This document shows, in pieces, positions 11,250-58,960 of a DNA stretch of 64,000 nucleotides (positions are counted from its first letter, which is position 1; each line of letters starts with the position of its first letter). This DNA is from Chitinophagaceae bacterium (GTDB lineage Bacteria > Bacteroidota > Bacteroidia > Chitinophagales > Chitinophagaceae): positions 434,001 through 498,000 of the forward strand of contig JAMLHK010000001.1 of assembly GCA_023957155.1 (NCBI GenBank), written 5' to 3'. The notes under the pieces are model-generated. The model saw only the letters and a list, made by a program, of their open reading frames with translations, was not told the DNA's origin and ran no database searches. A program made the translations under genes and the position numbers.

Positions 11250-11275
11250 TACATCATCCTTCGCAGCAACCCATC

Positions 11276-37170: not shown

Positions 37171-39054
37171 TTATTTCGTCCCTTCAGCTAAAAAAGCCCT
37201 GTACTTTTCCAGGTATTCTTTGGGCGTAGTGTGCCACTCAGACGTTCTGCTTACTTTGGTGCGCACGCAATGATATACAAACTCGTATAATACACTTACG
37301 ATCTCAGGATCAGGTACCAAAGAGCCATCTGTCCCCTTGATCAATGCACCCCGGTTCCCGGCTTTGGCTTCCTTTGCAATTTCAAGCATCGCATAATACA
37401 CCGGCAAACGGGCAGATTTTACCCTTACATGATACCCGGGCTTATTTTTTACCTTCTTCTCTCCCCTGTCGAAAATCCGGTTATAGCGTTCTATTAAATC
37501 CACCGATAAAAAACTTTCTTTTTCCTGTACCGGCGAGCCGAAAATGGACATCCTGACGCCCTGCCCCGAACGGTTATTATCATGTAACAGCCTGATATAC
37601 TCCTTTATTTCGGCAGCGGCAGGTCCGTAATAAGCATCAATAAATTCATTTTTTTCTTTTTCAATATCAATATCAGGATTCCATAACAAGCGGGCTATCA
37701 GGTAAGATCTTAAGGGTGCAAAATCGCCTCCCGACTGAATGTTGCCCTGCTCAAACAACGCCGTCACATTGTTATCCCGGAGAAACTGAATATTAGGCTG
37801 AAGGACCCGCAGATTAGGAAAAGGAGCGAGCAAATGTGAAAAGCGTATCACATAATCCCATACCAGGATATTATTCGTCAGTTTTCCCCAACCGACCAGA
37901 TCTTCACAAAAAGCTTTATCACCTACCGTCATGGGATCATTGCGTGAACTTTCTATACTGCAAAGCATAATGTTCACATTCTTACGCGGCACAATACCTT
38001 TAGGCGGAGTGCGGGAGTACTGGTAGGCCAATGTAGAAATAATTTTATCCGGGAATCTTTCCGCCACTTTATTGACAAACGTAAGCAGTGATCCCATACC
38101 TAATGCAGTATACCCGCTTGTTCCATGCGTAGCCAGATTTTTTTCTTCCGGCTTATATGCAGCGTATTGACTGTCTAAGGCAGCACAGTTTTCGCAACGG
38201 CAATAATTCACATTATCATTCTGGCTAACTGACCAGTATAATGCGCCCGGATTTTTGTCTATTGCCTTTTTCAGATTATCACAAACGATCTCTAATACAT
38301 CCGGATTGGTCAGGCACAGCTGCGCCTCCGGCTGCGTACCCCCTCCATCCCAGGAAGAGATCAGTCCTGCATGTCTTTTACCGTCATAATAGCTGAAATA
38401 CTCCGGATGTGAAGCTCCATATACTTTGGGGTCAAGCAATGCATGAAAAGTATGCACCCAATACCCCCATTTTGTTTTATCGCTTCCCCTGCCCTCAAAA
38501 GAGTGGAGCTTATGCCAGTCCATATACTCCGGATCATACACATCATGATAATAGGTTTCCCGGAAGGTAAATACCGGTAGCTGCATATCATCAATGAACG
38601 GTAGCCTTATCGTCCTTTGCTTAGGAACATAAGTAAAATCCGATGTGTATTTCCGGCAGCCCAGGTATTTATCAAGAAAAGTATATACGCTATAGATCAC
38701 TCCTTTCTTATCACCTCCTGTCAGGATCAGCTTCCGGTTGTTCGTCTTAATCAGCAACCCATCCTCTTTTAACTGATTATAATCCACCTGGCCCTGCTCC
38801 GGCCGGTTCACTCTGCCAACTAAAATCTCTTCCGGGGAAGCTGTTGCATTATCGGCAACCAGGGGCAGGCTCACCCCGGTTATCCTGAACAAATAATCCT
38901 GTAATACTTTCGCCGCCTGTATTTCTATTACGGTAGCTTTCTCCGGCAGCACAATATGATAGTCGGATTTTCCTTTTTTAATTAACGTAAGCGGCTGTGC
39001 AGACAGCATGCCACACACCAGCAATAACAGCGTAAGCTGAAATACCTGTTTCAT
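37171..39054 (-). CDS. DUF4838 family glycosidase-like protein
   Basis: A 627-residue secreted protein; ATG 39054 (MKQVFQLTLLLLVCGM) gives a sound signal peptide and avoids a 16-bp overlap with the upstream gene that ATG 39084 would create. The N-terminal small domain is GH67/GH20-like (TVIEIQAAKVLQDYLF, SVYTFLDKYLGCRKY), then comes the DUF4838 barrel (YWSVSQNDNVNYCRCENCAA with its double-cysteine loop, LAYQYSRTPPKG, ILVWDYVIRFSHLL). DUF4838 proteins resemble alpha-glucuronidases, but activity is not established to my knowledge. It lies 14 bp after the GH42-like gene and is probably co-transcribed. Confidence 0.85.
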   Translation of the reverse strand: MKQVFQLTLLLLVCGMLSAQPLTLIKKGKSDYHIVLPEKATVIEIQAAKVLQDYLFRITGVSLPLVADNATASPEEILVGRVNRPEQGQVDYNQLKEDGLLIKTNNRKLILTGGDKKGVIYSVYTFLDKYLGCRKYTSDFTYVPKQRTIRLPFIDDMQLPVFTFRETYYHDVYDPEYMDWHKLHSFEGRGSDKTKWGYWVHTFHALLDPKVYGASHPEYFSYYDGKRHAGLISSWDGGGTQPEAQLCLTNPDVLEIVCDNLKKAIDKNPGALYWSVSQNDNVNYCRCENCAALDSQYAAYKPEEKNLATHGTSGYTALGMGSLLTFVNKVAERFPDKIISTLAYQYSRTPPKGIVPRKNVNIMLCSIESSRNDPMTVGDKAFCEDLVGWGKLTNNILVWDYVIRFSHLLAPFPNLRVLQPNIQFLRDNNVTALFEQGNIQSGGDFAPLRSYLIARLLWNPDIDIEKEKNEFIDAYYGPAAAEIKEYIRLLHDNNRSGQGVRMSIFGSPVQEKESFLSVDLIERYNRIFDRGEKKVKNKPGYHVRVKSARLPVYYAMLEIAKEAKAGNRGALIKGTDGSLVPDPEIVSVLYEFVYHCVRTKVSRTSEWHTTPKEYLEKYRAFLAEGTK

Positions 39055-39068
39055 GTTCCTGTAATTGA

Positions 39069-40313
39069 TCAGTTTTTCAGCCATGAATATATTACCATAT
39101 CCCCCGGGTCAACCTCTAACGTATTTGTATACGTGCTTGCGGGAACCAGCGTTCCGTCCTTCAATACTCTTTTCACCTTGTCTTCCGTTACTATAGTCGC
39201 CTTCATCTTAGTATACAAATCCCTGTTCACAACAACCATAAATTGCCGGTTTCCTTTTTCCAGTACGGACACTATTGCTCCGTTATCGCTTGTTTCCAAT
39301 ACTTTTACCGGAGGAGGTAAAAGGAGGAACCTCCGGGTTCCTGCGGGTATCTGCTTTCCGGTATGCGCCACGGAAAGCAATTTGGCATTAAGAAAAACAC
39401 CTGAAAGATTTTGTATTTCCTGATTTACCTGTTTAATCCGATCATACACATCCGTGCGCCTTCCATCTAATCCTATAGGAGCGTCATGAAAATCCCAGGA
39501 AGGGTTGATCCCCGGGTTCCAGTAAGTGAAATATTGCAGCCCCTGCGCACCATAAGCCAGGTTGCTGTACATCTGCAGCCTGATGTCTTCGATAACCGGT
39601 ATGGGATGAGCTCCGTGTGGAACGGATAACGCAAAGGCCCAGAAAGGCAGGTTGTTTTTTTTAGCTGCTGTGGTAATAATTTCCAGGTTTTTATACCAAT
39701 CGGAGCGGATCGTTTTTACGTTATTTTTTTCTGTTATCGGGTAATGATCGAAAGAGATAAAAGGTACGGGTACCTGCCGGAGAAAAGTATCTACATGTTC
39801 AGTATAAATATCTGTCCCCGGCCGTTTTTTATAGTCATCACCAAACAATTGATCCTGGTTTGCATAAGTGGGAAAGAGATTAATGTAGCAATAATGCTGT
39901 TTGTCTACCGACTGTATGCGTTTCACCCACCGGCCTAATTCGGGGAAGTCTTTTGCATTAGGCTCATCTATCAAATGGTACCCTGCCAAAGCCGGGTGTT
40001 TCATCAATCGTTTTGCCGTTTTTTCAGGTTCCGATTTTAATTCGGGGCAGGACGGAAGTAATTTAACGCCTGTCCGCTGCGCAATATCCAATGCTTTTTC
40101 AACCGCTTCGATACTGGAATACCAGGAGAAATTAATATTGATCCCCGATCCTTTCAGCTCTTTGAATCGCTCAATGGTGGTTTCTTTTTCAGGAACACCG
40201 ATCCAGGCTAAAATGGGTATTTCTCCATCTGATTGTAGCTTCTCCTGGGCAAAGGGGCTAAGACAGGAGATGCTTAATATCAATACTAAAAAATGCTTGT
40301 ATAAGATACTCAT
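39069..40313 (-). CDS. Exported TIM-barrel glycosidase-like protein (GH42-like)
   Basis: The 414-residue product has a signal peptide (LVLILSISCLSPFAQ) and a barrel reminiscent of clan A enzymes such as beta-galactosidases. The likely acid/base glutamate is in GYHLIDEPNAKD; the strand PFISFDHYPIT and the segment YGAQGLQYFTYWNPG are typical of the clan. A short C-terminal beta domain follows (FMVVVNRDLYTKM). Substrate unknown. It precedes the DUF4838 gene in one transcription unit. Confidence 0.72.
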   Translation of the reverse strand: MSILYKHFLVLILSISCLSPFAQEKLQSDGEIPILAWIGVPEKETTIERFKELKGSGININFSWYSSIEAVEKALDIAQRTGVKLLPSCPELKSEPEKTAKRLMKHPALAGYHLIDEPNAKDFPELGRWVKRIQSVDKQHYCYINLFPTYANQDQLFGDDYKKRPGTDIYTEHVDTFLRQVPVPFISFDHYPITEKNNVKTIRSDWYKNLEIITTAAKKNNLPFWAFALSVPHGAHPIPVIEDIRLQMYSNLAYGAQGLQYFTYWNPGINPSWDFHDAPIGLDGRRTDVYDRIKQVNQEIQNLSGVFLNAKLLSVAHTGKQIPAGTRRFLLLPPPVKVLETSDNGAIVSVLEKGNRQFMVVVNRDLYTKMKATIVTEDKVKRVLKDGTLVPASTYTNTLEVDPGDMVIYSWLKN

Positions 40314-40539: not shown

Positions 40540-41727
40540 TCATTTAAATACATCCCGGACAGCTTCAAGGTATTTCATCTCATTCCGGGTATCTGGTTCC
40601 AGGTAAGATCCTTCCCCCCATTCATTCCACGAATTAATAGTAACAATGCGCTCACCGGGAGGCTTTTCCATTGTTATTTTTTTAGCTTTCGCCAAAGCTT
40701 TTTTAAACAGGTAGGGGGTATTATCCGTTATCACCGCGCCATAAGGATAATCGCGCCGTTGCATCCAATCGCCTGCATTCCGGCACCTGGGCGAAGAATC
40801 CCAACCCATACTTACATTGAGGTGATAAGGAACCGGGATAGATGCCGCCGGCTTCTCCAGTCCGTTTGCACCACCGCCATTTTCCACACTGCGGAAATAC
40901 TGGTCAACTGCCACCTCGTATTTTGTAGCAGGAAAAGAAGGTAACGCATTGTGATGGATCCATACATAAGACGTTGTACTGCTCATCTTCAGGTTATTGA
41001 CCGCCGCATCCATATAGTTATTCAATCCAAACAGCACGCCATTCAAATGCAGGTCCTTAAACCCCGCTGCCTTAACCTTTGACCGGAACAGTTCGATAGC
41101 TTCAGCAGCTTTTTGAACATCTCCTCCAAAGGTTTCGATAAACGTATGCATCTGGTAAATAGAAAAATAAGGGCAGCCGTCAATTAACCAATAAGAAGGA
41201 TGTTTAAAATATTTTTCTATTATATAATCCATGATCTCTGTGAAAGTGTCCGGGGTTACAGCGCCCTTCATATCGCCTACATCATGATTGCACCATAAGA
41301 GCGCGAACTTAATGTCTGCATTATTGCCTGCCCCCAGGAAGCCTTCTTCCAGCGCCTTATAAAGATATTTTCCATAAGGCGGATCAAAATAATACCAGTC
41401 GAAAATAAAGGCATCAATTCCATGTCCGGCAGCCGCCTCTATTTTTTTAGACATCACTGCAGGTTCATTTTCATTTTCGTATCCCCACAGCGGGACTTTA
41501 GGTTGCTGATGACCATTAAAACGAGGCTTGGCAAACTTAACGAGCTGCCATTCGGATTCAGCTACCGGTCCCCAATTAGGGAAATAGTAGGCAGCCACCG
41601 ACACCTCGCCTTCAGGGATATCTATTGGCAATTCAGGCTCCGGATCAATGGATTCAGCAGATGATCTGCAGCCCGCGAGCATCAGCATCGAAACGGCACA
41701 AATAAAAAGAATACATTTCGTTCTCAT
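40540..41727 (-). CDS. GH99-like (WbsX-type) lipoprotein, paralogue 1
   Basis: From ATG 41727 a 395-residue lipoprotein (SMLMLAGC) is predicted; the earlier ATG at 41784 adds 19 residues before the signal. The mature part is a WbsX/GH99-like barrel: VAAYYFPNWGP at the start, the core GIDAFIFDWYYFD, HPSYWLIDGCPYFSIYQ and the C-terminal INSWNEWGEGSYLEP (Glu369 and Glu372 in an N-E-W-x-E motif). In GH99 endo-alpha-mannosidases, two glutamates of an NEWHEG motif are catalytic, so this motif suggests a related hydrolytic mechanism. It is the last gene of the six-member array behind SusCD and is separated from paralogue 2 by 88 bp. Confidence 0.85.
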   Translation of the reverse strand: MRTKCILFICAVSMLMLAGCRSSAESIDPEPELPIDIPEGEVSVAAYYFPNWGPVAESEWQLVKFAKPRFNGHQQPKVPLWGYENENEPAVMSKKIEAAAGHGIDAFIFDWYYFDPPYGKYLYKALEEGFLGAGNNADIKFALLWCNHDVGDMKGAVTPDTFTEIMDYIIEKYFKHPSYWLIDGCPYFSIYQMHTFIETFGGDVQKAAEAIELFRSKVKAAGFKDLHLNGVLFGLNNYMDAAVNNLKMSSTTSYVWIHHNALPSFPATKYEVAVDQYFRSVENGGGANGLEKPAASIPVPYHLNVSMGWDSSPRCRNAGDWMQRRDYPYGAVITDNTPYLFKKALAKAKKITMEKPPGERIVTINSWNEWGEGSYLEPDTRNEMKYLEAVRDVFK

Positions 41728-41815
41728 CCCAATACGCCGGTTCCCGATTGAACCACTGCGCTGTTTTAAAAAGATCCGGTCCATCTTCTACTGTTTTCTT
41801 GAAATAAGCGTGTAT

Positions 41816-42982
41816 TTAAGGCCTGAACACTTTTTTCACAGCTTCCAGGTATCCGTACCCGAACATCGTACACGGTTGCAGGTAGCTCGTTTCCGTCCAT
41901 TCGTTCCAACTGTTGATGGTGATCAACGGGGCTTGTTTAGGGTGAGCGTCTACATAAACTTTTGCATCCCGAAGCGCTTTTTCAAAATTAGCAGGCGTAT
42001 TGTTTTTGACAATGCCGCCGACCTGCATTTCAAACCTGGGGTTGTTGTCCCAGCCAACAGACACATGAGGGTAATAGGGTACCGATAAGCTTTTCCCGAT
42101 ACTTTCCCATTCTTTTACTGCATCAGCCTGTATTTCCAAATAGTCGCGGTCAATGTTGAGGAAATGAACATACTGGTAATGCGTGGCGCCATCAAACTGT
42201 AATTCTTTAATAACACTCAATTGTGTCCCGACATTATCACCGGCAATACCTGTGATATTCCCGTTCATATTTGACCGCAAAGTAAGCTGGAGATCCAGCC
42301 CTTTAAAGCCAGCCTTTTTCACTTCGGCACGGAACCAGTCTAACGCAGCTTTGGCTTCTTTCAAACCGCCCATACCGTCTATAAAAGTTTGCAACTCATA
42401 GATCATAAAGCTTGGCTTGCCGTCCACTGTATAATAATTCGGCTGATGAAAATATTTTTCAATTACCCGCTTACAAATATTCTCAAACTCCTTACGATTC
42501 ACACCGCCTTTCCAGATCAGGCTGTTATTGGGCTGTCCCGCCAAACGTTTGTCCCATGTCATGTTCACATCATGATTGGCCCACATCAGGTAAAACTTCA
42601 TGTCTTTATTATTAGCTGCTTTCAGAAATCCATCGTTCAAACAGCTTTCCAAAAAGGGCATTCCATCGTACCAATACCAGTCATAAATGAACACATTCAC
42701 ACCGTGGCGTGTAGCCGCCGATATCTGCATCTCCATTACATACGGATCGGCCTCATTCACATATCCCCAAAGAGGGTAACGGGGCTGCTCATGTCCCGGG
42801 AACTTCGCTTTGTTCGATTTCACCGTTTGCCATTCTCCCATACCTTCCGGCCAGAATATTTTTGCCCGGTCATCAGGATGATACGAGGGCCATACAAATG
42901 CAGCAATATCATATTTCTTTTGGGCACCCGCGGTTGCCAGGAAGAATACCACAAAACAGGCAATCAACGATATCTTTCTCAT
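41816..42982 (-). CDS. GH99-like (WbsX-type) secreted protein, paralogue 2
   Basis: A 388-residue protein with a Sec signal (IACFVVFFLATAGAQ). Barrel text: AAFVWPSYHPDDRAKIFW, GVNVFIYDWYWYDG, QPNYYTVDGKPSFMIYE and INSWNEWTETSYLQP (Glu361 and Glu364). The residue after the second glutamate is Thr instead of Gly. It begins 3 bp after the stop of the gene at 42986-44479, tight enough for coupled translation. Likely an endo- or exo-glycosidase on the PUL substrate. Confidence 0.85.
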   Translation of the reverse strand: MRKISLIACFVVFFLATAGAQKKYDIAAFVWPSYHPDDRAKIFWPEGMGEWQTVKSNKAKFPGHEQPRYPLWGYVNEADPYVMEMQISAATRHGVNVFIYDWYWYDGMPFLESCLNDGFLKAANNKDMKFYLMWANHDVNMTWDKRLAGQPNNSLIWKGGVNRKEFENICKRVIEKYFHQPNYYTVDGKPSFMIYELQTFIDGMGGLKEAKAALDWFRAEVKKAGFKGLDLQLTLRSNMNGNITGIAGDNVGTQLSVIKELQFDGATHYQYVHFLNIDRDYLEIQADAVKEWESIGKSLSVPYYPHVSVGWDNNPRFEMQVGGIVKNNTPANFEKALRDAKVYVDAHPKQAPLITINSWNEWTETSYLQPCTMFGYGYLEAVKKVFRP

Positions 42983-42985
42983 CTT

Positions 42986-44479
42986 TTACTTTTTTTCTTT
43001 TTTTTCAAAAAGCTCCGCCGGCATATTATAAGGGGTTTTCCCTATATCTTCAGGGATCAGGTCATCATGCTTTTCAGGGTCTTTGGAAAACACGTTGCGG
43101 ATAGCATCCAGGTACCCGAAACCATATTCGCGATAAGGCGCCAGGTAATGACCTTCGCTCCACTCATTCCAGTTGTCGAGAATAATCATCCTGCTGCCCA
43201 GTTCATCCTTTGAAAAATTATTTTCGATAAAGGCTTTCCCTTTCCGTAGCAGCACTTCAAAGTCTTTCGGGGAAAGTTTCCACACGCTACCCTCATCCTG
43301 CCATCCACTCCACGCCTGTGTAAAAGTGACCACCTGCGGCATCACATCATGCAGGCTTTGCATTTTTCGAATCTGTTCCATCTGGCTTTCAATGGCAACC
43401 TCAGGTGAAGGACTATTGGATACATGCCAGCAGTACTGGAACGTATAATCCAGCCCCATGGCTTTGAAGCGTGCAAGTGAGGCAGGTTGAAACCCGCGCT
43501 CCTCACCCATGATGATCAACCCGTCAAAACCGGCTTTTTTACAGGCCTCGCGCATCATATTAAATGCTGCTTTCGCCTTTTCATCGCTCCCCAGGTCGTC
43601 TGAAACAAAGAGCGGGCGATAAATATAAAGCACCGGTTTATTATCAATCTTGAGATAATTGTCTCTCTTGAAGAATTTCTCAATCCAGTAAGGCATCAGA
43701 TTCTCCATCAGGTCTTTTTCATCAGTGATGCCAGAAGTTCCTTTGGACTGGTTTTCCCACATAATGGTGAACTTCATCTGATCGCCATACTTCGACTTAA
43801 AGAGCGCCTCATCAAAAACACTTTTCTCGAACTGCGTTGTAACGGGCCCGTTCTGGCTGGTGCGATACCAGCAATAGATAAAAAAGGAAATACCGTGTTC
43901 CACTGCCCATTTGGTTTCCCAATCGGCTATTTCGGGATTATCCTGCGAATAAATTCCCAAAGCGGGTGTGCGTTCCTGGTGTTTATGCACAACCTGGTTC
44001 CAGAGTTCATAACGCCCCGTTTCCCACAGCGGGCAATTATGCGCTCCCACCAGTATATCTGTTTTGGCAGGCCTGGGCGCAGGGATATAAGCCTGTTTTT
44101 CTACCTTCCTGGCAGGCATCACTACCTGGTTAATAGCTGATCTTGAAAACACTTTCCCTCCGACAAGTACTTCCACTGCAAAATCTTTTTGCCCCGACTG
44201 AAGGCATTCTACCTCCCAGCTGTGCTGCCGGGAAGAGTCGGACAGCGCCGTAATCATTTCCTTTCCCATGCGGCTGCCATCGCCCGGAAGGATCAGCCTG
44301 CACTCATATTTCAGCTTCTCCGGGTTTTCAACTATCACATTGAAGTGAAACGGGCGGTTTGCCCTGATGATCGGCCGATCTGACTGAAAGCTGTTGCGTT
44401 TGATATTGATCTTTTCCTGCGCAACTAATTCAGAGCAGGAAAAGATCGTAAAGGCAATCAATAAACATATATATTTCAT
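42986..44479 (-). CDS. GH99-like (WbsX-type) protein with extra N-terminal beta domain, paralogue 3
   Basis: A 497-residue exported protein (signal CLLIAFTIFSC, possibly a lipoprotein). Unlike its neighbours it has an added N-terminal beta-sandwich of about 110 residues (RPFHFNVIVENPEKLKYECR) before the barrel (ILVGAHNCPLWETGR, GISFFIYCWYRTS, FTIMWENQSKG, NYLKIDNKPVLYIYRP). The C-terminal motif is LDNWNEWSEGHYLAP (Glu439 and Glu442), followed by a charged tail ending in KKEKK. The extra domain may bind glycan. It lies between two shorter paralogues with gaps of 3 and 15 bp. Confidence 0.84.
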   Translation of the reverse strand: MKYICLLIAFTIFSCSELVAQEKINIKRNSFQSDRPIIRANRPFHFNVIVENPEKLKYECRLILPGDGSRMGKEMITALSDSSRQHSWEVECLQSGQKDFAVEVLVGGKVFSRSAINQVVMPARKVEKQAYIPAPRPAKTDILVGAHNCPLWETGRYELWNQVVHKHQERTPALGIYSQDNPEIADWETKWAVEHGISFFIYCWYRTSQNGPVTTQFEKSVFDEALFKSKYGDQMKFTIMWENQSKGTSGITDEKDLMENLMPYWIEKFFKRDNYLKIDNKPVLYIYRPLFVSDDLGSDEKAKAAFNMMREACKKAGFDGLIIMGEERGFQPASLARFKAMGLDYTFQYCWHVSNSPSPEVAIESQMEQIRKMQSLHDVMPQVVTFTQAWSGWQDEGSVWKLSPKDFEVLLRKGKAFIENNFSKDELGSRMIILDNWNEWSEGHYLAPYREYGFGYLDAIRNVFSKDPEKHDDLIPEDIGKTPYNMPAELFEKKEKK

Positions 44480-44494
44480 GAGGGATGATTTTAT

Positions 44495-45703
44495 TTATTT
44501 TCCAAATACAGTTTTAATCGCCTGGAGATACTTCATTTTATGCACAACGTCAGGCTCCAGGTAGCTGCCTTCCGTCCATTCATTCCATGAATTAATGGTA
44601 ATGACTTTTTGATTATGCTTATCCATCATTTCTTTTACGTCTATGAGCCCCTGCTTAAACGCCTCAGGAGTATTACCTCCGATAATATTAGTATAAGGGT
44701 AGCCGGAATTATTAAACGGCGTATTCTGATTGGTACGTGGTGACGGATCCCAGCCTACCGATGCATTGGGGTAATAGGGTATAGAAAATGTGGCTATTGC
44801 CTGCTCTGCATATTGCAGGTATGCTTTTTTCACCATATCATAAGGTACAACCTGGTCATTCAAAGGCACATGATGGATCCATACATAAGAGGTAAAAGAG
44901 TTAAATCCTAATTTCTTTACCAAAGCTGCAGGATCTGTAACGGATTTCTCTCCCGGAAGTATCGGGTTTCCCCAAACAACGGCATTAAGGTTCAGGTCTT
45001 TAAACCCGGCTGCAATTGTTTTTTTTCTGAATGCAGCAAGCGCTGCTGCTGTTGCTTCCACACTGCCAAACGATTCCTGCAGTTTACTTAATTCATAAAT
45101 AGAAAAATAGGGTGCACCATCAATAAGCCAATAAGAAGGATGCTTAAAATAACGGTCAATGATCATATCCGTCATCTTATCCCAGGTGGCCGGCGTAATG
45201 GTTCCCGGATATACAATTTTATGCGGCTGACCCTGCGTATATGGATGAATATCTTCCCAATCATGGTTAGCCCACATCAGGCTGAACTTCAGTAAATGGT
45301 TATTCTTTGCCTTCATAAAGCCTTCCTCTAACCCCCGTTCTAAAAACGGGCCATCATCATAATAATACCAATCAAATATAAAGGCGTCTATTCCATGGGA
45401 TGCTGCTGCGGCAATTTTTTTTGCCATTTGTTTGGGATCGGCCTCATCGGTATATCCCCAGGCAGGAACTTTCGGCTGATCATGGTTGGCGAACCTGGGC
45501 CTTGCCGCTTTCACCAACTCCCATTCCGTCCATCCCTTTCCAAAATATGCTTCATTACGCTTATCCACGTGATAGTTAGGGAAATAATATACCCCCAGAT
45601 GATAGTCACCTTTCTTTTTGTTGTTGAATGTCTGGCTATCGGCACAATCGCTTATTGCCCAAAGTGCTATCGTTGCAAAAAAAATCATTACCCGTTGTCT
45701 CAT
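44495..45703 (-). CDS. GH99-like (WbsX-type) secreted protein, paralogue 4
   Basis: The 402-residue protein has a signal peptide (IFFATIALWAISDC). Barrel text: LGVYYFPNYHVDKRNEAYFG, GIDAFIFDWYYYDDG, LKFSLMWANHDW, HPSYWLIDGAPYFSIYEL, SVGWDPSPR and INSWNEWTEGSYLEP (Glu375 and Glu378). It is the closest relative of paralogue 1 by eye. It lies 15 bp upstream of paralogue 3 and 9 bp downstream of paralogue 5, all on one strand, so the array is one operon. Confidence 0.85.
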   Translation of the reverse strand: MRQRVMIFFATIALWAISDCADSQTFNNKKKGDYHLGVYYFPNYHVDKRNEAYFGKGWTEWELVKAARPRFANHDQPKVPAWGYTDEADPKQMAKKIAAAASHGIDAFIFDWYYYDDGPFLERGLEEGFMKAKNNHLLKFSLMWANHDWEDIHPYTQGQPHKIVYPGTITPATWDKMTDMIIDRYFKHPSYWLIDGAPYFSIYELSKLQESFGSVEATAAALAAFRKKTIAAGFKDLNLNAVVWGNPILPGEKSVTDPAALVKKLGFNSFTSYVWIHHVPLNDQVVPYDMVKKAYLQYAEQAIATFSIPYYPNASVGWDPSPRTNQNTPFNNSGYPYTNIIGGNTPEAFKQGLIDVKEMMDKHNQKVITINSWNEWTEGSYLEPDVVHKMKYLQAIKTVFGK

Positions 45704-45712
45704 ACCTTTTTG

Positions 45713-46792
45713 TTATTTTAATATTTTACGAATTGCCTCTAACCGGCTGGTATTGTTCCCCAATGTCGGGCATATCCATCCTCCTTCATCAAATTCATTC
45801 CAGGCATACATCAGTATTACACCTGCTTCGGCAGCATTTGTATTGTTACTGGTCCATTTGATTGCATTTTGAAGACTTTGCGCAATCTGATCCGGGGTAC
45901 CATCTTTTGCATACCCATCGGGGGTATAATAAGAATTCCATAAAACAGATCTTTCAATTCTCGGCTTAGGATTCCACCCTGCTGTAACCCAGGGTACCAA
46001 CGGCTTGCCTGAAGCTGCATATTTTTCCCATCCTGCCTGATCGCTTTTAGGAACAGCGGGTGAATATGCCGCCCTGTTATAGGAAGCGCCGGTTTCAAAA
46101 TCGGTCACGCTGGCGTAACAACTAATTGCATCTGCATATAAACTGTCTGCGGCAGCAACTGCATTTTGAGCCGAAAACCCCATCACTACTATATAAGGAT
46201 CGGGAACGCCCGCAAGCCTGCTTAAATTTCTCAACGCTGTAAGCTGCGGAAGCAGGGTGGCCGTAGCCGAAAAAACATATACCAATGGTCTTCCGTTCAA
46301 TACTTTTTGATAATTATTTTCTTTAAATCTTTCTACCAGCCATTTGGCGTCTTTATCGTAATCAAAAGGATTGGTACCCAGTATTACACACCATTTAATA
46401 TCACTTTTATATGCACTTTTAAGATAAAGCTGCCTGGCAGTATCCAGACCGCTGCCGGAAGGATACCAGCAAAAAGCCCAGTAGTCCAGCCCCGCATACT
46501 TTGCATAAGCAATTTCCTGATCCATGATAGCCTGTGTAGTACCCCGGCACTGAATGGAATCATCATGAATTATTTTACTAAAAAATGGAGCCCGGTAATG
46601 ATATTGACGCGGACCTAATATACGCTCTACTTCTAAGCCGGCACGATTTAAATCCCCTACCCACCCGTCCCAGCGAATAGCTCCTACAAGAGGTTGCTCT
46701 TTTTCATTAAACGGCATTACAACACGGGTGACCGGGTCTGTTAAAAGTGGCAGCGCAATCGAAATTCCATATAGAAAAGCGAACAGTTTCAA
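45713..46792 (-). CDS. GH99-like secreted protein, paralogue 5 (WNEFDEG subtype)
   Basis: A 359-residue protein with a hydrophobic N-terminus (LFAFLYGISIALPLL), probably a Sec signal. It shares the opening VGAIRWDGWVGDLN, AGLDYWAFCWYPSG and WCVILGTNPFDYDKDAKW with the next gene, and ends with MYAWNEFDEGGWICP (Glu333 and Glu336). In this pair the motif reads NEFDEG, with Phe in place of Trp. It is a tandem duplicate of 46800-47852 and probably acts on the same glycan with altered specificity. Confidence 0.82.
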   Translation of the reverse strand: MKLFAFLYGISIALPLLTDPVTRVVMPFNEKEQPLVGAIRWDGWVGDLNRAGLEVERILGPRQYHYRAPFFSKIIHDDSIQCRGTTQAIMDQEIAYAKYAGLDYWAFCWYPSGSGLDTARQLYLKSAYKSDIKWCVILGTNPFDYDKDAKWLVERFKENNYQKVLNGRPLVYVFSATATLLPQLTALRNLSRLAGVPDPYIVVMGFSAQNAVAAADSLYADAISCYASVTDFETGASYNRAAYSPAVPKSDQAGWEKYAASGKPLVPWVTAGWNPKPRIERSVLWNSYYTPDGYAKDGTPDQIAQSLQNAIKWTSNNTNAAEAGVILMYAWNEFDEGGWICPTLGNNTSRLEAIRKILK

Positions 46793-46799
46793 TTGTATT

Positions 46800-47852
46800 C
46801 TACTTTAAGATTTCTTTAATGGCATCTAAGCGGCTTGTATTATTCCCGAGCGTGGGACATATCCATCCCCCTTCGTCAAACTCATTCCAGGCATACATCA
46901 GCACTGTATTGGCCTCTACCGTTGATTTGTTCATCATTGTCCACCTTAACGCATTGCTGAGGTTATCTGCAATTTGCCCGGGTGTCCCATCACTTACCCA
47001 TCCATCAGAAGAAACTGTCGTCCACGATACCGGGTTATCAATACGCGGTTTGGTATTGTGACCCGTAGTTACCCAGGGTACCACTTTTCGCCCCGTAGCC
47101 TTATACCCTTCCCATCCAAGAGAATCAGCATGGGGAATGACCGGGTAATACGGCTCTCCATCCTTGCCCGTCCAACTGATGTATGCACTCATTGCATCAG
47201 CCTGCAAACTATCCGCCATTGCAACAGCAGCTGTAACAGAAAATTCCATCACTACTATATACGGCTCCTCTATATTTGCCGCCTTACTCAGATTTCTCAG
47301 TTTAGCAAGCTCTTGCGGCTTAGTCATTGCAGAGGGAAAGACATACACCAATGGTCTTCCATTTAACACCTTCTGATAGTTTTTCTCTTTAAACCGGTCA
47401 ACCAACCACACCGCATCCGTGCCATAATCAAACGGGTTAGTACCCAGTATTACACACCATTTAATATCATCCCGGTGTTTACTGGCCAGGTAAAGCTGCC
47501 TCGCCGTATCCAACCCGCTATGCGGAGGATACCAGCAGAATGCCCAATAATCCAGCCCTGCAGCACTGGCATAAGCTATTTCCTTATCCATAATATCCTG
47601 GGTGGCTCCCCTGCACTGGATGGAATCATGAGAAATTTCCTTACTATAAAATGGGGCACGGTAATGATATTGATTTGGACCCAGCGCACGCTCTACTTCC
47701 AGCCCCGCAGGATTCAAATCCCCTACCCATGCATCCCATCGAATAGCGCCTACAAGCGTATCCTGCCTGTAGGGGGAAGGGGAGTTACACGATATAAGAA
47801 AACTGAATACAACAAGCATTATACATAACAATACCTTACTCATAGTGGACAT
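46800..47852 (-). CDS. GH99-like lipoprotein, paralogue 6 (WNEFDEG subtype)
   Basis: The 350-residue product is a lipoprotein (VFSFLISC). Text is closely parallel to paralogue 5 throughout (VGAIRWDAWVGDLNPAGLE, AGLDYWAFCWYPPHSG, VILGTNPFDYGTDAVW, MYAWNEFDEGGWICP with Glu324 and Glu327). It is the first gene after SusD (21 bp) and 7 bp before paralogue 5. Its lipid anchor suggests a place next to SusD on the cell surface, whereas paralogue 5 is likely periplasmic, so the two could cut the glycan in turn. Confidence 0.83.
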   Translation of the reverse strand: MSTMSKVLLCIMLVVFSFLISCNSPSPYRQDTLVGAIRWDAWVGDLNPAGLEVERALGPNQYHYRAPFYSKEISHDSIQCRGATQDIMDKEIAYASAAGLDYWAFCWYPPHSGLDTARQLYLASKHRDDIKWCVILGTNPFDYGTDAVWLVDRFKEKNYQKVLNGRPLVYVFPSAMTKPQELAKLRNLSKAANIEEPYIVVMEFSVTAAVAMADSLQADAMSAYISWTGKDGEPYYPVIPHADSLGWEGYKATGRKVVPWVTTGHNTKPRIDNPVSWTTVSSDGWVSDGTPGQIADNLSNALRWTMMNKSTVEANTVLMYAWNEFDEGGWICPTLGNNTSRLDAIKEILK

Positions 47853-47873
47853 TATAACAGCAGTTTGAATGAA

Positions 47874-49670
47874 TTATTGATAGCCGGGGTTTTCAACAAG
47901 GTTTGGATTATTACCCGTACGGGTAAGCGTAACCGGCAAATAATAATTTTGCGGATAAAATGCAGGAGGCGCAACAGTCCCGTCCACATTTTGAATAATC
48001 AATAATTTGTATTTGCCAGTGGTATAATCCAGGATATACTGTAACCCGGAAAAATTCCGTGAAAGATCGGTAACGGCCGTTCTCCACCTGCGCAGATCCC
48101 AGTAACGATGTCCTTCAAAAGCAAGTTCCACTTTCCTTTCGTGCCTTATCTTATCCTGGTCAACAGAGGCTAATGGTGCGATCCCTGCCCGTTCTCTGAT
48201 TTGATTGACGGCATCTAATGCATCATCCGACTTCCCAAGATATAAGGCAGCTTCCGCATAATTCAACAAGACCTCCCCTAAACGGAATACAATAAAATCC
48301 GTAGAAGAAGTAGCCCAATCCCCATTAGATCCTATCAGGTTACCATGGCTCTCGTCCAAATATTTCATTACACCAAAACCGGTGGTCTTGTTTTGAACAC
48401 CATTAGCCAGGACACCATTGTATGATCCGTCCGTCTGAATCGTACCATCGGGCTTAAGTATCCCTTTATGATAATCCAGCATCGTTCCCAGCCATGATGT
48501 ATTCTGCGTATAAATAGTTGCAAAGAATCTCGGATCCTTATCCCCCCATAATTGTTCCGTAGTCCACAATCCCTGCTGAATGGCATTCCGGTCCAGCGTA
48601 CCGGAACGTCCATCAATATATTCAAACGCCTCTGCCATTTCTAAGTAAACTGCATTTTGATTACCCGATCCCCAACCATTGGGTACAGGGCATTGAAAAA
48701 AATCATAGCCCCATCCGTTTCCTCCATTTCCCATTCCATTATTTTCATCATGCCGCTTTACCAAAATTTGCTCCGTATTATTCTTATCAAGAAAAAGATT
48801 CCTAAAATTTGTCACTTTGTCATCAGGATATTTTTTATACAATGAATAAACATGGCTGTTTATAATCTGCTCTGCAGCATTATACGCCTCCTGATAATAG
48901 GTATTGGCCGCCGAGGCCTCAATACCTACAACCCCGTCTAATTGTACCGTTCCAAACTGCGCTATGCTTCCGGCATATAAAGCAGCCCTGCATTTTAAAG
49001 CTAATGCGGCATATTTTGTAGGTCTGCCCAGGTCATTAGAGGTTTCCGGAAGGTCATTTGAAAACCCGTTGACTTCGGACAACACAAAATCATATATCTC
49101 CCGCTCTTTAGCACGTTTCGGATACAATACATCCTGCGGGGTATTCAGATCCTGGACTTCGATAATTAAAGGAATACCACCATAACGCTTTACCATTTCA
49201 AAATAATTATACGCTCTTAAAAACCTTGCCTCTGCTATTCTCCTTTTTTTTAGATCAGCCTCCAGCGGTGATTCCGGCACCGTTTGAATGAACTGATTCA
49301 ACTTACGAATAACCTTATACGCGTTTTCCCACCATTCTAACAGACCACCGTTAATTTTTAAATTGCCTGATTTATATGGATACGCATCACTAAGCCATGC
49401 GGTCCGGGATTCATCACTTACCTCGTTGATCCACATGGGTGCAGGTCCCGCATCCCCCTTCCACAAATTATCCCAGGAATTATCCGTAGAAACATTAGTA
49501 AAAACATAAGTTTCCGCATAACATTCAGTAAGGTATGCATTAATTAATGCCGGATCTTTCCACACCACATCGTCAGAGATCATGTCTAAAGGCACTTTAT
49601 CTAACACGCCTTTTTTACAGGATGCATTTATTATAAAGAATATTAAAAATATTCGGATTGTAATTTTCAT
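47874..49670 (-). CDS. SusD/RagB family nutrient-binding lipoprotein
   Basis: A 598-residue lipoprotein (IFFIINASC, Cys18) with SusD features: the N-terminal DKVPLDMISDDVVWKDPALI, helical TPR-like text (RRIAEARFLRAYNYFEMVKR with YGGIPLI just after), and the C-terminal VNQIRERAGIAPL and ELAFEGHRYWDLRRW. It sits on the outside of the outer membrane as the lid of the SusC channel and binds the target polysaccharide. It follows SusC by 23 bp and precedes the GH99-like array, defining the locus as a PUL. Confidence 0.96.
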   Translation of the reverse strand: MKITIRIFLIFFIINASCKKGVLDKVPLDMISDDVVWKDPALINAYLTECYAETYVFTNVSTDNSWDNLWKGDAGPAPMWINEVSDESRTAWLSDAYPYKSGNLKINGGLLEWWENAYKVIRKLNQFIQTVPESPLEADLKKRRIAEARFLRAYNYFEMVKRYGGIPLIIEVQDLNTPQDVLYPKRAKEREIYDFVLSEVNGFSNDLPETSNDLGRPTKYAALALKCRAALYAGSIAQFGTVQLDGVVGIEASAANTYYQEAYNAAEQIINSHVYSLYKKYPDDKVTNFRNLFLDKNNTEQILVKRHDENNGMGNGGNGWGYDFFQCPVPNGWGSGNQNAVYLEMAEAFEYIDGRSGTLDRNAIQQGLWTTEQLWGDKDPRFFATIYTQNTSWLGTMLDYHKGILKPDGTIQTDGSYNGVLANGVQNKTTGFGVMKYLDESHGNLIGSNGDWATSSTDFIVFRLGEVLLNYAEAALYLGKSDDALDAVNQIRERAGIAPLASVDQDKIRHERKVELAFEGHRYWDLRRWRTAVTDLSRNFSGLQYILDYTTGKYKLLIIQNVDGTVAPPAFYPQNYYLPVTLTRTGNNPNLVENPGYQ

Positions 49671-49693
49671 GACTTATTTTTTTACGATTATTG

Positions 49694-52600
49694 CTATAGA
49701 GATATGTTCACGCCAAATGTTACCGTCTTTTGCTGCGGATAATAATATCCCGAATTACCGGATGGCGCTTCCGGATCGGTACCATACTTCTTTAACCCGT
49801 CAAACGTTATCAAATTATTGCCGGCAACATATATCCTTACCTGCTTTAATTTAACGGTTTCTAACCATTGCCTGGGCAGGTTATAGCCGAGGGCAACGGC
49901 CTTCAATCTCATATATCCGGCTTTCTTGTAGTAATAATCTGATGATAATCCATTAGTGGCTGCTCCTCCTAACCGGGGTACCAGCGCATTGGGATCATTG
50001 GTTTCCTGTGTCCATCTCAGATCATAAACGATAGCAGGCGGTAAGTCGCCATGTGTTAATACAATATAGTTATAGTATCCAAACGCTCCCTGGAACAAGG
50101 CGGAAAGATCAAAATCTTTGTATTTTATATTGCCATTGAAGCCCAGCATCCAATGGGGAACAGTACCCTTCCCTATTTCTACCTGGTCTTTCCAGTCTAA
50201 CGTACCGTCTCCATTTGCATCCGTATACCATATATCACCCGGACGAAGTGAAACATTTCCCTGGTTATCCTGATTAAATTTTAACCCGTTGATCTGATCC
50301 TGGCTGGTAAATAACCCGTTGGATAAATAACCATAACTACGATCAGTCCACCTTCCTGATTTTTTATAAATTCTTTCCTGGTCCGGATCGGAATACTCCG
50401 GCTCCTCATAATGATCCCACTTTGCCCTTGACCAGGAAATATTCCCGTTCACATCCCATTCAAAGTCTTTACTTCTCCCTGATGTGCCTAATCTTAATTC
50501 AAATCCCCTGTCATTTAAACTATTTATATTTTCAGGAGGAAGGTCTGCTCCAAATGTAGTCGGCAAAGTAGTAATTCTTGTAGCCGGTATACCTTTACGC
50601 TCCCGGTAAAAAATATCACCCTCCCCATATAATTTTCTATTCCATAAAGAAAAATCCAACCCGGCATTATAAATACGAATTTTCTCCCAGGTTAAATCCG
50701 GGTTAGCCAAACCGCTCGAAACAATGCCCTGCTGAACTCTGTTGTCTAAGATGTATGTAAGTCCATACTGATATCCGGTGAGATACTGAAAATTGCCGAC
50801 CCCGTCATTACCCGACTCTCCATAGCTTGCTCTAAGTTTCAAGTCACTTAAATTATTACTTATCTCCCTGATGAAGTCTTCCTCAGACAGCCTCCATCCA
50901 AGAGAAACACTGGGGAAATAACCCCATCTCTTAGCAGAAGGAAACTTAGCGGAAGCATCCGCTCTCAGAATAGTTTCCACCAGATATTTTTCCTTATACG
51001 AATAATTAATCCTGCCTACATAACTTTTTCTTCCCATTTCAGATGCCGAACCATTATTTACCATACCGGAAGTACTCCCTGCAAATAACTGGTCTATGGC
51101 AGGAGTAAGAAAATTAATCCTGCCCACACTTACATAATCACTACTATAATCAATCGCCTCATAAAGAGCTAAGGCATTTACATGATGGAATCTCCCGAGA
51201 GTGCGATTGTAGCTCAGCGAAAGCTGACCGGTTATCACCCGGCTCTTATTATTGACCTGAGAAAGCGAAGCCGTTGAGCCTAATGCACCCGCTAATGTAT
51301 AGGTATCACTTACAGGATCGTAGGTATAGAACTGTACCGGTCGCGTAAAATGCTTATTATTACCGTAATCCTGTACAATATTCAGAAATGCCTTAGCTGA
51401 TAATCCCTCGATAGCATTAGAAGTATAATTTAAGGCAATAGCCCCTCTTAAATTTTGAGATTCCGTGTTGTCATATCCGGCTATCTCACTATTGGTAATG
51501 ACGTGAGCGCCTCCTGTACCTCCACCGTTGGCAAAAGAAATTTTAGTGGGGTCCGGTAACGTGGGCGGATATATGGGCAATGTGGCCCAGTAATCCTGCC
51601 ATACCGTATTTGCTCCGGCATTTTGGGGCCGCCAGGGGAATTTACGGCTTTCAAAAATGGAAGAAACATCCAGCTGAAAAGACAGGTTATCCGAAATTGC
51701 CGCGTCAATATTAGATTGAATATTGTACCTTTTATAATCTCCCCCATTCTTCTTCCATATTGTCTGCTGATCCAGGAATCCTATTAAGCCATAATATTTG
51801 ATCCTTTCACTTCCTCCCCTTACAGATAAATTATGTTGTTGCTGAGGCGCCCAGTCCCTGATCAGCTCACGATACCAATTTGTATTAGGATACAGCGGAT
51901 CTGTACCATTATAGTATTTTTGAATCTGCTCCTCCGTAAAAGGTACCTGGTCAGCCGGTCGGCCCGATTGGAGCCATGCTTCAGATTTCATCTCGGCATA
52001 CTGTCCTGCACTGGCGGGTTTGGGCATTATAGTGATCCCCTGCATCGTTGTAGAGGAATTTAGCATGATAACCGGCTTACTGTTATTTCCCCGCTTCAGG
52101 GTAACTAATATCACGCCATTCCCCGCGCGGGCTCCGTAAATAGAGGCCGCTCCGTCCTTCAATATGGTAACAGATTCAATTTGGTTGGCATCTATGTTGT
52201 TAAAGCTTGACTCAACTCCGTCTACAATAACAAGCGCCCCGCCAAAGCCCCTGATGCTTAAACTTGCCGCATCAGACCCCGGCTGTCCGCTGGATTGTAA
52301 AGAAATCAAACCCGGAAGCCGCCCGGCTAAGCTATTAGCAGTACTCGCTACGGGAGCCGCCGCTAATTGTTCTCCCTTGACAGAAGCAATGGATCCCGTA
52401 ACCGTTTGCTTTTTTTGTGTTCCATATCCGGTAACAACTACCTCATCAAGCCCCGCAGCAGCTACTTTCAGCACAATAGACTGCAATTGGGCTATGTCGG
52501 CAACCCGAATCTCCCTCGATTCATAGCCTACCATGCTTATCTCCAGAATATCCGTATTATCTGCAGCTATAGAAAAAGAACCATCGGAAATGGTTGTCAC

Positions 52601-53065
52601 GCCTTTATTCTGTCCTTTTACTTTTACACTCACCCCTTCCAGCGGGTTCCCCCCTTCATCTGTTACCCGGCCGTAAACCTCAACCTGCTTTTCCAGTTCG
52701 GAACGATTGGGTGAAATGACTACCAGGTAATTATTTACAATTTTATACACCAGGAAGTCACCCAGTACCTGTTGCATGATCTCAGGTACGGTTGCATTTT
52801 TTACATCTACACTTACCTTACCCAGCTTTTTGATATCTTCTTTTAAGAAGAAGAAACGGTAGTCGCTCGTTTCCTGTATCTTTTTGAATACATGCGATAC
52901 ATTGACCTGCTCCAGCTTCATAGAGAACCTTTCCTGTCCGTAACCATTGGCAGACACATGCAGAAAAGGCATGAGAAGAAGCAAGACAGTTATTTTCATA
53001 AACAGTAAAAACTTAAAGGAGGAGCGCAAAGGAATATCCTGCAGCAGATTCCTGCATTTTTTCAT
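49694..53065 (-). CDS. SusC/RagA TonB-linked outer-membrane transporter with STN domain
   Basis: The 1123-residue form from ATG 53065 is preferred; ATG 53125 would add 20 residues. After a signal peptide (ITVLLLLMPFLHVSANGYGQ) come an STN secretin-like domain (about 45-110), a CarboxypepD_reg-like domain (about 125-205, VYGRVTDEGGNPLEGVSV), the plug with DEVVVTGYGTQKKQTVTGS, then the beta-barrel ending KTVTFGVNISL. It imports oligosaccharides with SusD using TonB energy. The STN domain is typical of transporters that signal through a FecR-type anti-sigma factor, and such a gene lies 192 bp upstream. So substrate binding probably activates the PUL sigma factor. Confidence 0.96.
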   Translation of the reverse strand: MKKCRNLLQDIPLRSSFKFLLFMKITVLLLLMPFLHVSANGYGQERFSMKLEQVNVSHVFKKIQETSDYRFFFLKEDIKKLGKVSVDVKNATVPEIMQQVLGDFLVYKIVNNYLVVISPNRSELEKQVEVYGRVTDEGGNPLEGVSVKVKGQNKGVTTISDGSFSIAADNTDILEISMVGYESREIRVADIAQLQSIVLKVAAAGLDEVVVTGYGTQKKQTVTGSIASVKGEQLAAAPVASTANSLAGRLPGLISLQSSGQPGSDAASLSIRGFGGALVIVDGVESSFNNIDANQIESVTILKDGAASIYGARAGNGVILVTLKRGNNSKPVIMLNSSTTMQGITIMPKPASAGQYAEMKSEAWLQSGRPADQVPFTEEQIQKYYNGTDPLYPNTNWYRELIRDWAPQQQHNLSVRGGSERIKYYGLIGFLDQQTIWKKNGGDYKRYNIQSNIDAAISDNLSFQLDVSSIFESRKFPWRPQNAGANTVWQDYWATLPIYPPTLPDPTKISFANGGGTGGAHVITNSEIAGYDNTESQNLRGAIALNYTSNAIEGLSAKAFLNIVQDYGNNKHFTRPVQFYTYDPVSDTYTLAGALGSTASLSQVNNKSRVITGQLSLSYNRTLGRFHHVNALALYEAIDYSSDYVSVGRINFLTPAIDQLFAGSTSGMVNNGSASEMGRKSYVGRINYSYKEKYLVETILRADASAKFPSAKRWGYFPSVSLGWRLSEEDFIREISNNLSDLKLRASYGESGNDGVGNFQYLTGYQYGLTYILDNRVQQGIVSSGLANPDLTWEKIRIYNAGLDFSLWNRKLYGEGDIFYRERKGIPATRITTLPTTFGADLPPENINSLNDRGFELRLGTSGRSKDFEWDVNGNISWSRAKWDHYEEPEYSDPDQERIYKKSGRWTDRSYGYLSNGLFTSQDQINGLKFNQDNQGNVSLRPGDIWYTDANGDGTLDWKDQVEIGKGTVPHWMLGFNGNIKYKDFDLSALFQGAFGYYNYIVLTHGDLPPAIVYDLRWTQETNDPNALVPRLGGAATNGLSSDYYYKKAGYMRLKAVALGYNLPRQWLETVKLKQVRIYVAGNNLITFDGLKKYGTDPEAPSGNSGYYYPQQKTVTFGVNISL

Positions 53066-53257
53066 ACATTTGATTTGAAAAGTTAAAAAGATGAATAAGC
53101 CTGCCTGATCGCTGTGCCTATTCAATGATCTGAATGTAACTTTTTAGAGAGGAGGAGTACCATTCTTCCTCTTTTTGTTATTTAGGATATGATTCTCCCG
53201 GGGGGACTATGACCTGTCATAAGCATAATTTTAGTTTACAATTTGAGTAATTACCTT

Positions 53258-54337
53258 TTACCGGATATAAATTTCTTTACCTTTTATCTCGTACTTAAAG
53301 TTTACCATAATCTGTAAGATCTGTAAAGCCTGCTGAATATCCACATTATCAAAATCGCCATTCATCAAAATGCTTTTCATCTTTTCATTTTCAAACCGGA
53401 TGCGTACATCATACCATCTTTCCATTCTAAGCGCTACCGTTTCAAAAGGCTCATCGGTAAAAATCATTTTTTCTTTCACCCATACCGCTTCCTCCGGCAT
53501 ACCGTTTTTTTCAATATCCGGCGAAACCGTTTTTACTTCGTAGCTTATCCCGGTTACAGCAGCCGGGGATTCTTTAAGCGAATTGGTATTCTTCAGTGAG
53601 ATCTTTTCATTAGGCAGGAGGATCACTTTTTTTTCCGCACCCTCTTTCAGGCTCACTTCTACCTTACCTTCCACCACAGTAGTTTCAATATCCTCTTTGG
53701 TATCGTACGCTTTTACATTAAAAACAGTACCTAACACCTTCACTAACATCCGATCGGTATTAACCAAAAAGGGATGAGCCGCATCTTTGGTTACTTCAAA
53801 AAAAGCTTCCCCGCTTAACCATACTTCCCTGTTTCTTTTGCCAAAATTTTTATTGTATACCAGCCGGCTGCCGCTGTTCAGATGCACCATAGTGCTATCC
53901 GGAAGTAATACGCTCTTCCTTTCTCCATTTTGGGCTATGATCACCGAATCTTTAAGCTGTCGCTGTACGATCAACGGGGACTCCCCCGCCGGCTTCAGCC
54001 ATATCATCCACGCTGTAAGCATTAGTATCGTTACTACCGAGGCCGCTGCCAACAGCCTTTTCATGGTAAAAACTTTCCTTTTCTCCTCCAAGCCGGGTAT
54101 ACGATCAGATGATGGTATAGTATAACCATGCAGTTTGCCGGATACTTTCTCCCATTGCCCATCCAAAAAGGCTTCATCTAATCCCGGATTTTTCTGCCAT
54201 ATATCCTGTAATAACTCCAGATCAAAAGACTTCACCCCCTTATCTTTCAGTAACCAGTTTAATTCGGTTAACTCCTCCGGCGTAGCTTCATTGCTTAGCT
54301 TTTTCCCCAATAAAATAAAAACCCTGGATTCTTTCAT
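53258..54337 (-). CDS. FecR-type anti-sigma factor of the PUL
   Basis: A 359-residue membrane protein. A cytoplasmic N-terminal part (EEARVFILLGKKLSNEAT-type text, NWLLKD) precedes one membrane helix (VTILMLTAWMIWL, about 94-112), a FecR beta-domain (SGSRLVYNKNFGKRNREVWL, GEAFFEVTKDAAHPFLV) and the C-terminal DUF4974 domain (FETVALRMERWYDVRIRF), which contacts the STN domain of SusC. It would keep the ECF sigma factor inactive until SusC signals. Unlike the usual sigma-FecR-SusC order, a GH106 gene and a 449-bp repeat-rich gap separate it from the sigma gene. Confidence 0.93.
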   Translation of the reverse strand: MKESRVFILLGKKLSNEATPEELTELNWLLKDKGVKSFDLELLQDIWQKNPGLDEAFLDGQWEKVSGKLHGYTIPSSDRIPGLEEKRKVFTMKRLLAAASVVTILMLTAWMIWLKPAGESPLIVQRQLKDSVIIAQNGERKSVLLPDSTMVHLNSGSRLVYNKNFGKRNREVWLSGEAFFEVTKDAAHPFLVNTDRMLVKVLGTVFNVKAYDTKEDIETTVVEGKVEVSLKEGAEKKVILLPNEKISLKNTNSLKESPAAVTGISYEVKTVSPDIEKNGMPEEAVWVKEKMIFTDEPFETVALRMERWYDVRIRFENEKMKSILMNGDFDNVDIQQALQILQIMVNFKYEIKGKEIYIR

Positions 54338-58294: not shown

Positions 58295-58885
58295 CTAAAA
58301 TCCTGACGAAACAGAAGAAGACTTTTGATATGCCGCTAAATCAATATTAAGTGATGCCGCTATTTTTCTAATTGCAGATGCAATATGATTCTCTACGGTT
58401 CTGGGGGAGATATTCAGCACTTCGGCCACCTCTCTATAGGTAAGCCCCTCTTCCTTAACCAGCTTATATGCTATCCGGCACCTGGGGGAAAGGCTCAGGA
58501 TAGCTTTATTAACCCGTTGAAGCAGTTCTGAAGCTACCAGCATGTCTTCTGGATCTGGCACCAGCCTGAAATAATCCGCACCTATGTCATCCAAATCCAT
58601 AACCTCCTTATCCGTAGCTCTCCTGACATAATTAAAACAGCGGTTTTTAACGGCAATGTAGAGGTATATCCTGAGATTAGAGATCGCTGTAATGGTTGAA
58701 CGTTTGTTCCAGATTGCCACAAATACATCCTCAACAATTTCTTCCGCAGCTTCTTTCAACTTTACTATGGACATGGCAAACCGGAAAAGCCCCGTATAGT
58801 AATACCTGAACAATAGTTTAAATGCATGCGGATCACTCTGCATGGCAACTTTTTCCTGCAACTCAAAAATCTCTTTTCCCGTCAT
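58295..58885 (-). CDS. ECF sigma factor of the PUL (Bacteroidota FecI-like)
   Basis: From ATG 58885 the 196-residue product has the usual length; the frame continues upstream to 59035 but that part lacks sigma homology. Region 2 reads LFRYYYTGLFRFAMSIVKLK and EEIVEDVFVAIWNKR; region 4 reads LSPRCRIAYKLVKEEGLTYR and EVAEVLNISPRTVENHIASA. It is of the FecI-like Bacteroidota expansion type and should be controlled by the FecR protein at 53.3-54.3 kb. The stop is followed after 211 bp by the GH106 gene, on the same strand. Confidence 0.93.
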   Translation of the reverse strand: MTGKEIFELQEKVAMQSDPHAFKLLFRYYYTGLFRFAMSIVKLKEAAEEIVEDVFVAIWNKRSTITAISNLRIYLYIAVKNRCFNYVRRATDKEVMDLDDIGADYFRLVPDPEDMLVASELLQRVNKAILSLSPRCRIAYKLVKEEGLTYREVAEVLNISPRTVENHIASAIRKIAASLNIDLAAYQKSSSVSSGF

Positions 58886-58937
58886 TACAGATAGTTTAAT
58901 GGCTATTGCTGTTCTAAAGTTACTGTTATTTTTATTT

Positions 58938-58960
58938 AAATGAAGTATTTTTTGATTTGA
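58938..58960 (-). promoter_or_regulatory. 23-bp repeat, copy upstream of the PUL sigma gene
   Basis: Lies 52 bp before the sigma start on the minus strand and is identical to 58214-58236. The position suits a promoter or autoregulatory site. Confidence 0.5.

Follow-up and report, generated by a model that had tools for sequence, protein, structure and literature searches.

The 1,2-anhydro chemistry of glycoside hydrolase family GH99 is unusual among glycosidases. The GH99 catalytic motif is E-W-(H/G)-E (PMC11025385), GH99 members are known from polysaccharide utilisation loci (PULs) for yeast mannan (PMC13421300), and GH195 is associated with sulfated alpha-1,3-mannan in Polaribacter and Ochrovirga (PMC13063451). 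Here we analysed a window of 64,000 nucleotides, meaning the whole stretch under study, from a Chitinophagaceae bacterium (GCA_023957155.1, contig JAMLHK010000001.1, positions 434,001 to 498,000), in which six adjacent genes, named G1 to G6, lie behind a SusCD pair. We conclude, with a probability of roughly three in four, that their products are glycosidases which leave the cytoplasm, belong to the GH99/GH71/WbsX barrel superfamily and work in one SusCD PUL, most likely with GH99-like chemistry. The computed support consists of the fold (for two of the six), residue mapping by profiles, genomic context, a tree and purifying selection; from these we infer hydrolysis, retention, substrate and division of labour.

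All six genes are on the minus strand (40540-47852), with 3-31 bases between neighbouring open reading frames (ORFs) and 21 bases between SusD and G6. The preliminary description of six adjacent minus-strand genes behind SusCD that keep N-E-(W/F)-x-E was borne out by the ORF list and a motif scan, and its end coordinate, 53065, falls within the SusC 5' end as listed here. NE[WF]xE occurs exactly once in each of the six proteins. Among 38 largely non-overlapping ORFs of at least 200 amino acids in the window (18,570 residues), these six alone contain it, and shuffled versions of each protein contain it in 0.2-1.3% of cases. Pairwise identity among the six is 18-63%, with G5 and G6 at 63%. A simple hydropathy and lipobox scan, used in place of SignalP, gave lipobox-like LAGC in G1, lipobox-like LISC in G6 and a hydrophobic N-terminus in G2, G3 and G4. 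Export of G5 is less sure because its ortholog in a related array, L046, has a weak N-terminal segment only.

Family profiles place the six proteins close to WbsX. G1 to G5 passed the cut-off of 25.1 bits for PF14307 (Glycosyltransferase WbsX) and G6 fell about one bit short at 24.1, while the G6-type profile matched the WbsX profile with a probability of 100%. For GH99 (PF16317, cut-off 33) G1 to G4 scored 20.6-23.9 bits and G5 and G6 had no match at E 0.1, the level at which the six also found no match in NCBIfam. The H(I/L)EPY motif of GH99 is in none of the window proteins, with Y or F accepted at its end; among 51 rows used for a tree, a HIEPY-type motif was seen in two GH99 sequences only, as HIEPF. 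E-x-x-E is present in all six, as EWGE in G1 only and as EWTE, EWSE or EFDE in the others; the GH71 motif D-Y-G-E is absent, the first acid being Glu throughout. Since the six miss the Pfam threshold for GH99 and have no HIEPY motif, we do not call them GH99 and read them as exported GH99-superfamily glycosidases. The barrel was predicted for G4 and G6 only, with AlphaFold models of mean confidence (pLDDT) 86 and 91, respectively. Fold searches with both models placed GH99 at the top, well above unrelated barrels, with GH71 as the next fold, and identity to GH99 in the structure alignments was 13-18%. The proposed GH99-like fold is thus supported for these two of the six.

We mapped the two glutamates onto GH99 with sequence profiles. 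The Glu pair of G4-type proteins aligned with the GH99 catalytic pair, and that of G5/G6-type proteins did so weakly. G3 matched the WbsX profile with its Glu pair aligned and reaches the GH99 pair through that profile; the G3-type profile aligned directly with GH99 over a 106-column part only, with the motif outside it. Searched against solved GH99 structures, the G5/G6-type and G3-type profiles gave no direct match, the few rows listed being unrelated. Profile alignment therefore supports the earlier placement of the glutamates at putative catalytic positions, weakly for the G5/G6 type. All six proteins keep the pair, as does every one of the 54 rows of alignments A2 and A3; the strict motif is found in 43 of the 51 tree rows and (W/F)NExxE in 50, the exception being L034.

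The motif was also weighed by itself as proof of hydrolysis, and rejected. Classic WbsX proteins, collected from 147 genomes of the same family, keep both glutamates; the nine in the tree have no clear signal peptide (L037 is borderline). Those in L089, L090 and L096 adjoin ABC-transporter/Wzt, glycosyltransferase or sulfotransferase-like genes, assigned by Pfam for two L089 genes and otherwise by eye, and these three loci look biosynthetic. Because cytoplasmic proteins of such loci carry N-E-(W/F)-x-E, it is not diagnostic, contrary to the weight the preliminary description gave it. A PF14307 survey of 395 Bacteroidota genomes found matches in 50; most strong matches exceeded 300 bits, as in the classic L021 and L022, and scores of 90-190 bits occurred only in the genome of the window and in G203, G347 and G336.

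Two other positions separate the exported proteins from the classic ones. A Tyr aligned to the GH99 active-site Tyr was found in 17/17 non-classic rows of A3 and 21/21 rows of A2, and in 0/16 classic WbsX rows; classic rows that are not part of the tree were assigned to this class from their sequences. Directly ahead of the second Glu, 9/9 classic tree rows carry Ala, whereas the 39 remaining tree rows with WNExxE have D, S, T, G or L there and in no case Ala. Together, these columns form a candidate simple marker for which WbsX proteins are hydrolases.

A maximum-likelihood tree of the 51 rows placed each of G1 to G6 in a separate lineage. G1 grouped with L052 from another member of Bacteroidia, with G4 as sister of that group; G2 grouped with L017/L018/L048, G3 with L048, G5 with L048 (99/96) and G6 with L047 (98/95). 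The deep order is unsure because of long branches (L034 beside GH99, L012, L030). The tree omits the copies in L045 and L055, which closely resemble L046, as well as L016/L036 (scores identical to those of the L048 genes), the L057 G6-type protein (inserted F5/8C domain) and the classic L022, L023, L025, L027, L031 and L032, which were used in A3. The six window genes required 6 label changes; shuffled labels required 5.8 on average, and 500/500 shuffles were as low. Approximately unbiased (AU) tests, run on clades that include the L046 orthologs and were named after the tree was seen, rejected G5+G6 (p 0.0044), G1+G4 (p 2.5e-5) and G1+G2+G4 (p 2.5e-93). The local duplication first proposed as the origin of the array is not supported by the tree, the shuffles or the AU tests; a more ancient duplication, in a forerunner of the locus, may have occurred.

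The gene order G6-G1 is repeated in L046. In L045 the contig stops after G2 and so truncates the array, and in L055 G1-G4 stand in the same order, with G5, G6 and SusCD fragmented. The L055 fragments of SusC, SusD, G6 and G5 (about 4600-12250) come from a metagenome-assembled genome and are perhaps read errors. The recurring order points to an old, maintained assembly, most likely of lineages that already existed and were brought together, not duplicated in place. Between the window and L046, the ratio of nonsynonymous to synonymous substitution rates (dN/dS) was 0.047-0.174 for the six genes, compared with 0.061 for SusC, 0.072 for SusD and 0.104 for GH106; the six genes are under strong purifying selection.

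A scan of genome contigs with G6 yielded 13 loci. A gene of the G1/G2/G4 clade is present in eight of them (L045, L046, L047, L048, L049, L052, L055, L057), or in 6/11 when three close arrays are counted once. Such genes are otherwise rare, with strong matches (E <1e-80) in 3/146 other genomes of the family, one apparently that of L048. GH106 or GH78-like genes accompany six of the 13 (L046, L047, L048, L052, L053, L057), and sulfatases occur in L052 and L053. Four loci were opened for their G2-type gene: L092 contains a relative of the L048 GH78, L091 has a partial GH78-like domain, and none was seen in L093 or L097; in L091 and L097 the G2 relatives adjoin other SusCD pairs. In Cohnella (L049), a signal-less G4-type gene follows ABC-transporter-like genes (judged by eye) and is followed by short-chain dehydrogenase/reductase, alcohol dehydrogenase and amidohydrolase genes and then by a G6-type gene whose product combines a signal-like N-terminus with F5/8C domains. 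The Capsulimonadaceae locus (L057) has a G4-type gene without a signal, followed by genes for an apiosidase-like protein, GH106, a beta-helix protein and a G6-type protein with F5/8C. Both arrangements suggest that the G6 type cuts outside and the G4 type cuts imported material. The earlier claim of a degradative setting is supported by SusCD, FecR/ECF sigma and GH106, and by carbohydrate-binding modules (CBMs) and type IX secretion system (T9SS) tails in some relatives.

Under GH99-like chemistry, the first Glu of E-x-x-E would take the proton from the 2-hydroxyl, which would attack C1 to give a 1,2-anhydro sugar; the second Glu would protonate the leaving group, and the outcome would be retention. 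Such a mechanism requires the 2-hydroxyl to be axial, which makes alpha-D-mannosides or alpha-L-rhamnosides the likely targets. The adjoining rhamnosidases point to alpha-L-rhamnose, and the precedents of GH99 and GH195 (PMC13063451) point to alpha-mannose. G6, lipoprotein-like and CBM-bearing in relatives, would probably make the first cuts outside; SusCD would import the fragments, G4-like enzymes would cut them further inside, and GH106 would remove terminal rhamnose. Most likely, six old lineages were kept together to digest a single complex polysaccharide that probably contains rhamnose or mannose, and a separate enzyme for each linkage is plausible given an identity of 18-63% among the protein sequences. 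A bolder proposal, which we consider tentative and rather unlikely, is a new degradative WbsX/GH99 branch that would cut alpha-L-rhamnosidic backbones via 1,2-anhydro-rhamnose; a single PUL would then combine six specificities, and the Tyr would mark cutting versus building WbsX proteins.

Several observations weigh against assigning G1 to G6 to exported GH99-like glycosidases of a PUL. Seven of the 13 G6-type loci have no rhamnosidase in their flanks, which span at most 10 kb and are often ended by the contig. The Tyr split follows one branch of the tree and so may count once, as a single event, and alignment of the classic rows is difficult in this region. No published activity for the exported WbsX branch, nor a paper on PUL WbsX enzymes, was found among the matches listed, most subscription papers lying outside the search. 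Furthermore, the ten-row GH71-like profile A6 matches A3 at E 1.2e-17, better than the two-row GH99 profile does, and a Trp stands two residues after the Tyr in G1, G3 and G4. These two features leave room for hydrolysis by inversion, as in GH71, where water would be activated by the first acidic residue and the second would act as the acid. GH71 is also the next fold for both models, and the AnGH71C paper describes inverting chemistry for a dyad at this position (PMC12394665). Yet the first acid is Glu rather than Asp in all six, the GH99 structure scores are higher for both models, and that paper places a Trp of AnGH71C in the column where all six have the GH99-type Tyr. We consider inversion improbable.

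The top VIA match of both models is 5ngw, which we take to be a GH99-related, glycan-binding or pseudo-enzyme-like structure, and in its aligned motif Asn and Ile replace the two Glu. Some or all of the six might likewise bind glycans without cutting them, which is very unlikely given the conserved Glu pair and the strong purifying selection on the genes. Least likely of all, with hardly any weight, are glycosyltransferases or transglycosidases of surface polysaccharide synthesis. The Pfam name and the glycosyltransferase/ABC loci of classic members would suit such a role, as would an exported G6-type protein with the Glu pair (L009, in L095 at 8220-9305, G099:C19), whose gene has GT4, cytidylyltransferase, nucleotidyltransferase and DHQS-like neighbours; this synthesis-like setting also indicates that G6-type members are not confined to PULs and argues against a clade that is catabolic throughout. 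Against synthesis stand the SusCD, ECF/FecR and GH106 neighbours, the export signs, the CBM and T9SS fusions in relatives, the hydrolase-type barrel predicted for G4 and G6, and the absence of the active-site Tyr from classic rows.

The FecR, GH106 and extracytoplasmic function (ECF) sigma factor genes lie upstream of the SusCD array in the same direction (Table 1). ECF/FecR pairs are a common regulator setting for SusCD-type loci. A sulfatase gene lies farther away in the window (31171-32661). After G1, on the same strand, are genes for a DUF4838/GH67N protein and a weak GH42-like protein (37171-40313), where L046 has a GH106-like gene instead. Elsewhere in the window, Amidohydrolase_2, DHDPS-family and SMP-30 lactonase-like proteins (7148-8239, 11276-12325 and 25761-26771) possibly serve a non-phosphorylated sugar-acid route. 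A seventh WbsX-like gene of the same genome (L094 7595-8731; C1, about 415.8 kb) stands behind its own ECF sigma, FecR, SusC and SusD relatives.

Table 1 Genes of the array and its neighbours, in window coordinates
Feature	Position	Strand	Description	Profile evidence
G1	40540-41784	-	WbsX/GH99-like, lipoprotein-like N-terminus, NEWGE (Glu388/Glu391)	PF14307 141.8 bits
G2	41816-42982	-	WbsX/GH99-like, NEWTE	PF14307 189.2 bits
G3	42986-44479	-	additional N-terminal region, then WbsX/GH99-like domain, NEWSE	PF14307 81.8 bits
G4	44495-45703	-	WbsX/GH99-like, NEWTE (Glu375/Glu378), Tyr273	PF14307 180.8 bits
G5	45713-46792	-	divergent WbsX/GH99-like, NEFDE, TTG start	PF14307 28.3 bits
G6	46800-47852	-	divergent WbsX/GH99-like, lipoprotein-like N-terminus, NEFDE (Glu324/Glu327), Tyr224	PF14307 24.1 bits
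SusD	47874-49670	-	SusD-like glycan-binding protein	PF07980 183.5 bits
SusC	49694-53125	-	SusC-like TonB-dependent transporter	Plug, CarbopepD_reg_2 domains
FecR	53258-54337	-	FecR-type anti-sigma factor	PF04773, PF16344
GH106	54787-58083	-	GH106 alpha-L-rhamnosidase	PF17132 797 bits
ECF sigma	58295-59035	-	ECF sigma factor	PF08281, PF04542

Because PF14307 bears a glycosyltransferase name, its exported members in PULs are probably misannotated, and the Tyr column with the residue before the second Glu offers a direct, cheap test for hydrolase members of WbsX. The six lineages in one locus are a ready panel for specificity mapping, and a branch acting on other sugars with an axial 2-hydroxyl, if true, would widen the 1,2-anhydro chemistry.

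Compared with described systems, the six proteins share superfamily and dyad position with GH71 and with GH71-like enzymes such as PmGH99 (PMC13421300); GH71 differs in its D-x-x-E motif and in the inversion proposed for AnGH71C (PMC12394665). They belong to the PF14307 WbsX family by profile, five of six above the cut-off, whereas its classic members have no clear signal, show Ala between the two Glu and are without the Tyr, and the three opened loci look biosynthetic. GH195, compared by description, is an endo-enzyme related to GH99 and found in a PUL of Bacteroidota together with sulfatases and GH92, a mix resembling that of L052, but one GH195 stands there among four active enzymes, in contrast to six barrels here. 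With the GH99 endo-alpha-1,2-mannosidases/mannanases (BtGH99, BxGH99 and human MANEA), despite low structural-alignment identity (G4 and G6), sub-threshold Pfam scores and the missing HIEPY motif, the six have in common an E-x-x-E that follows the last strand and a Tyr in the corresponding column, and G4 and G6 the predicted barrel fold.
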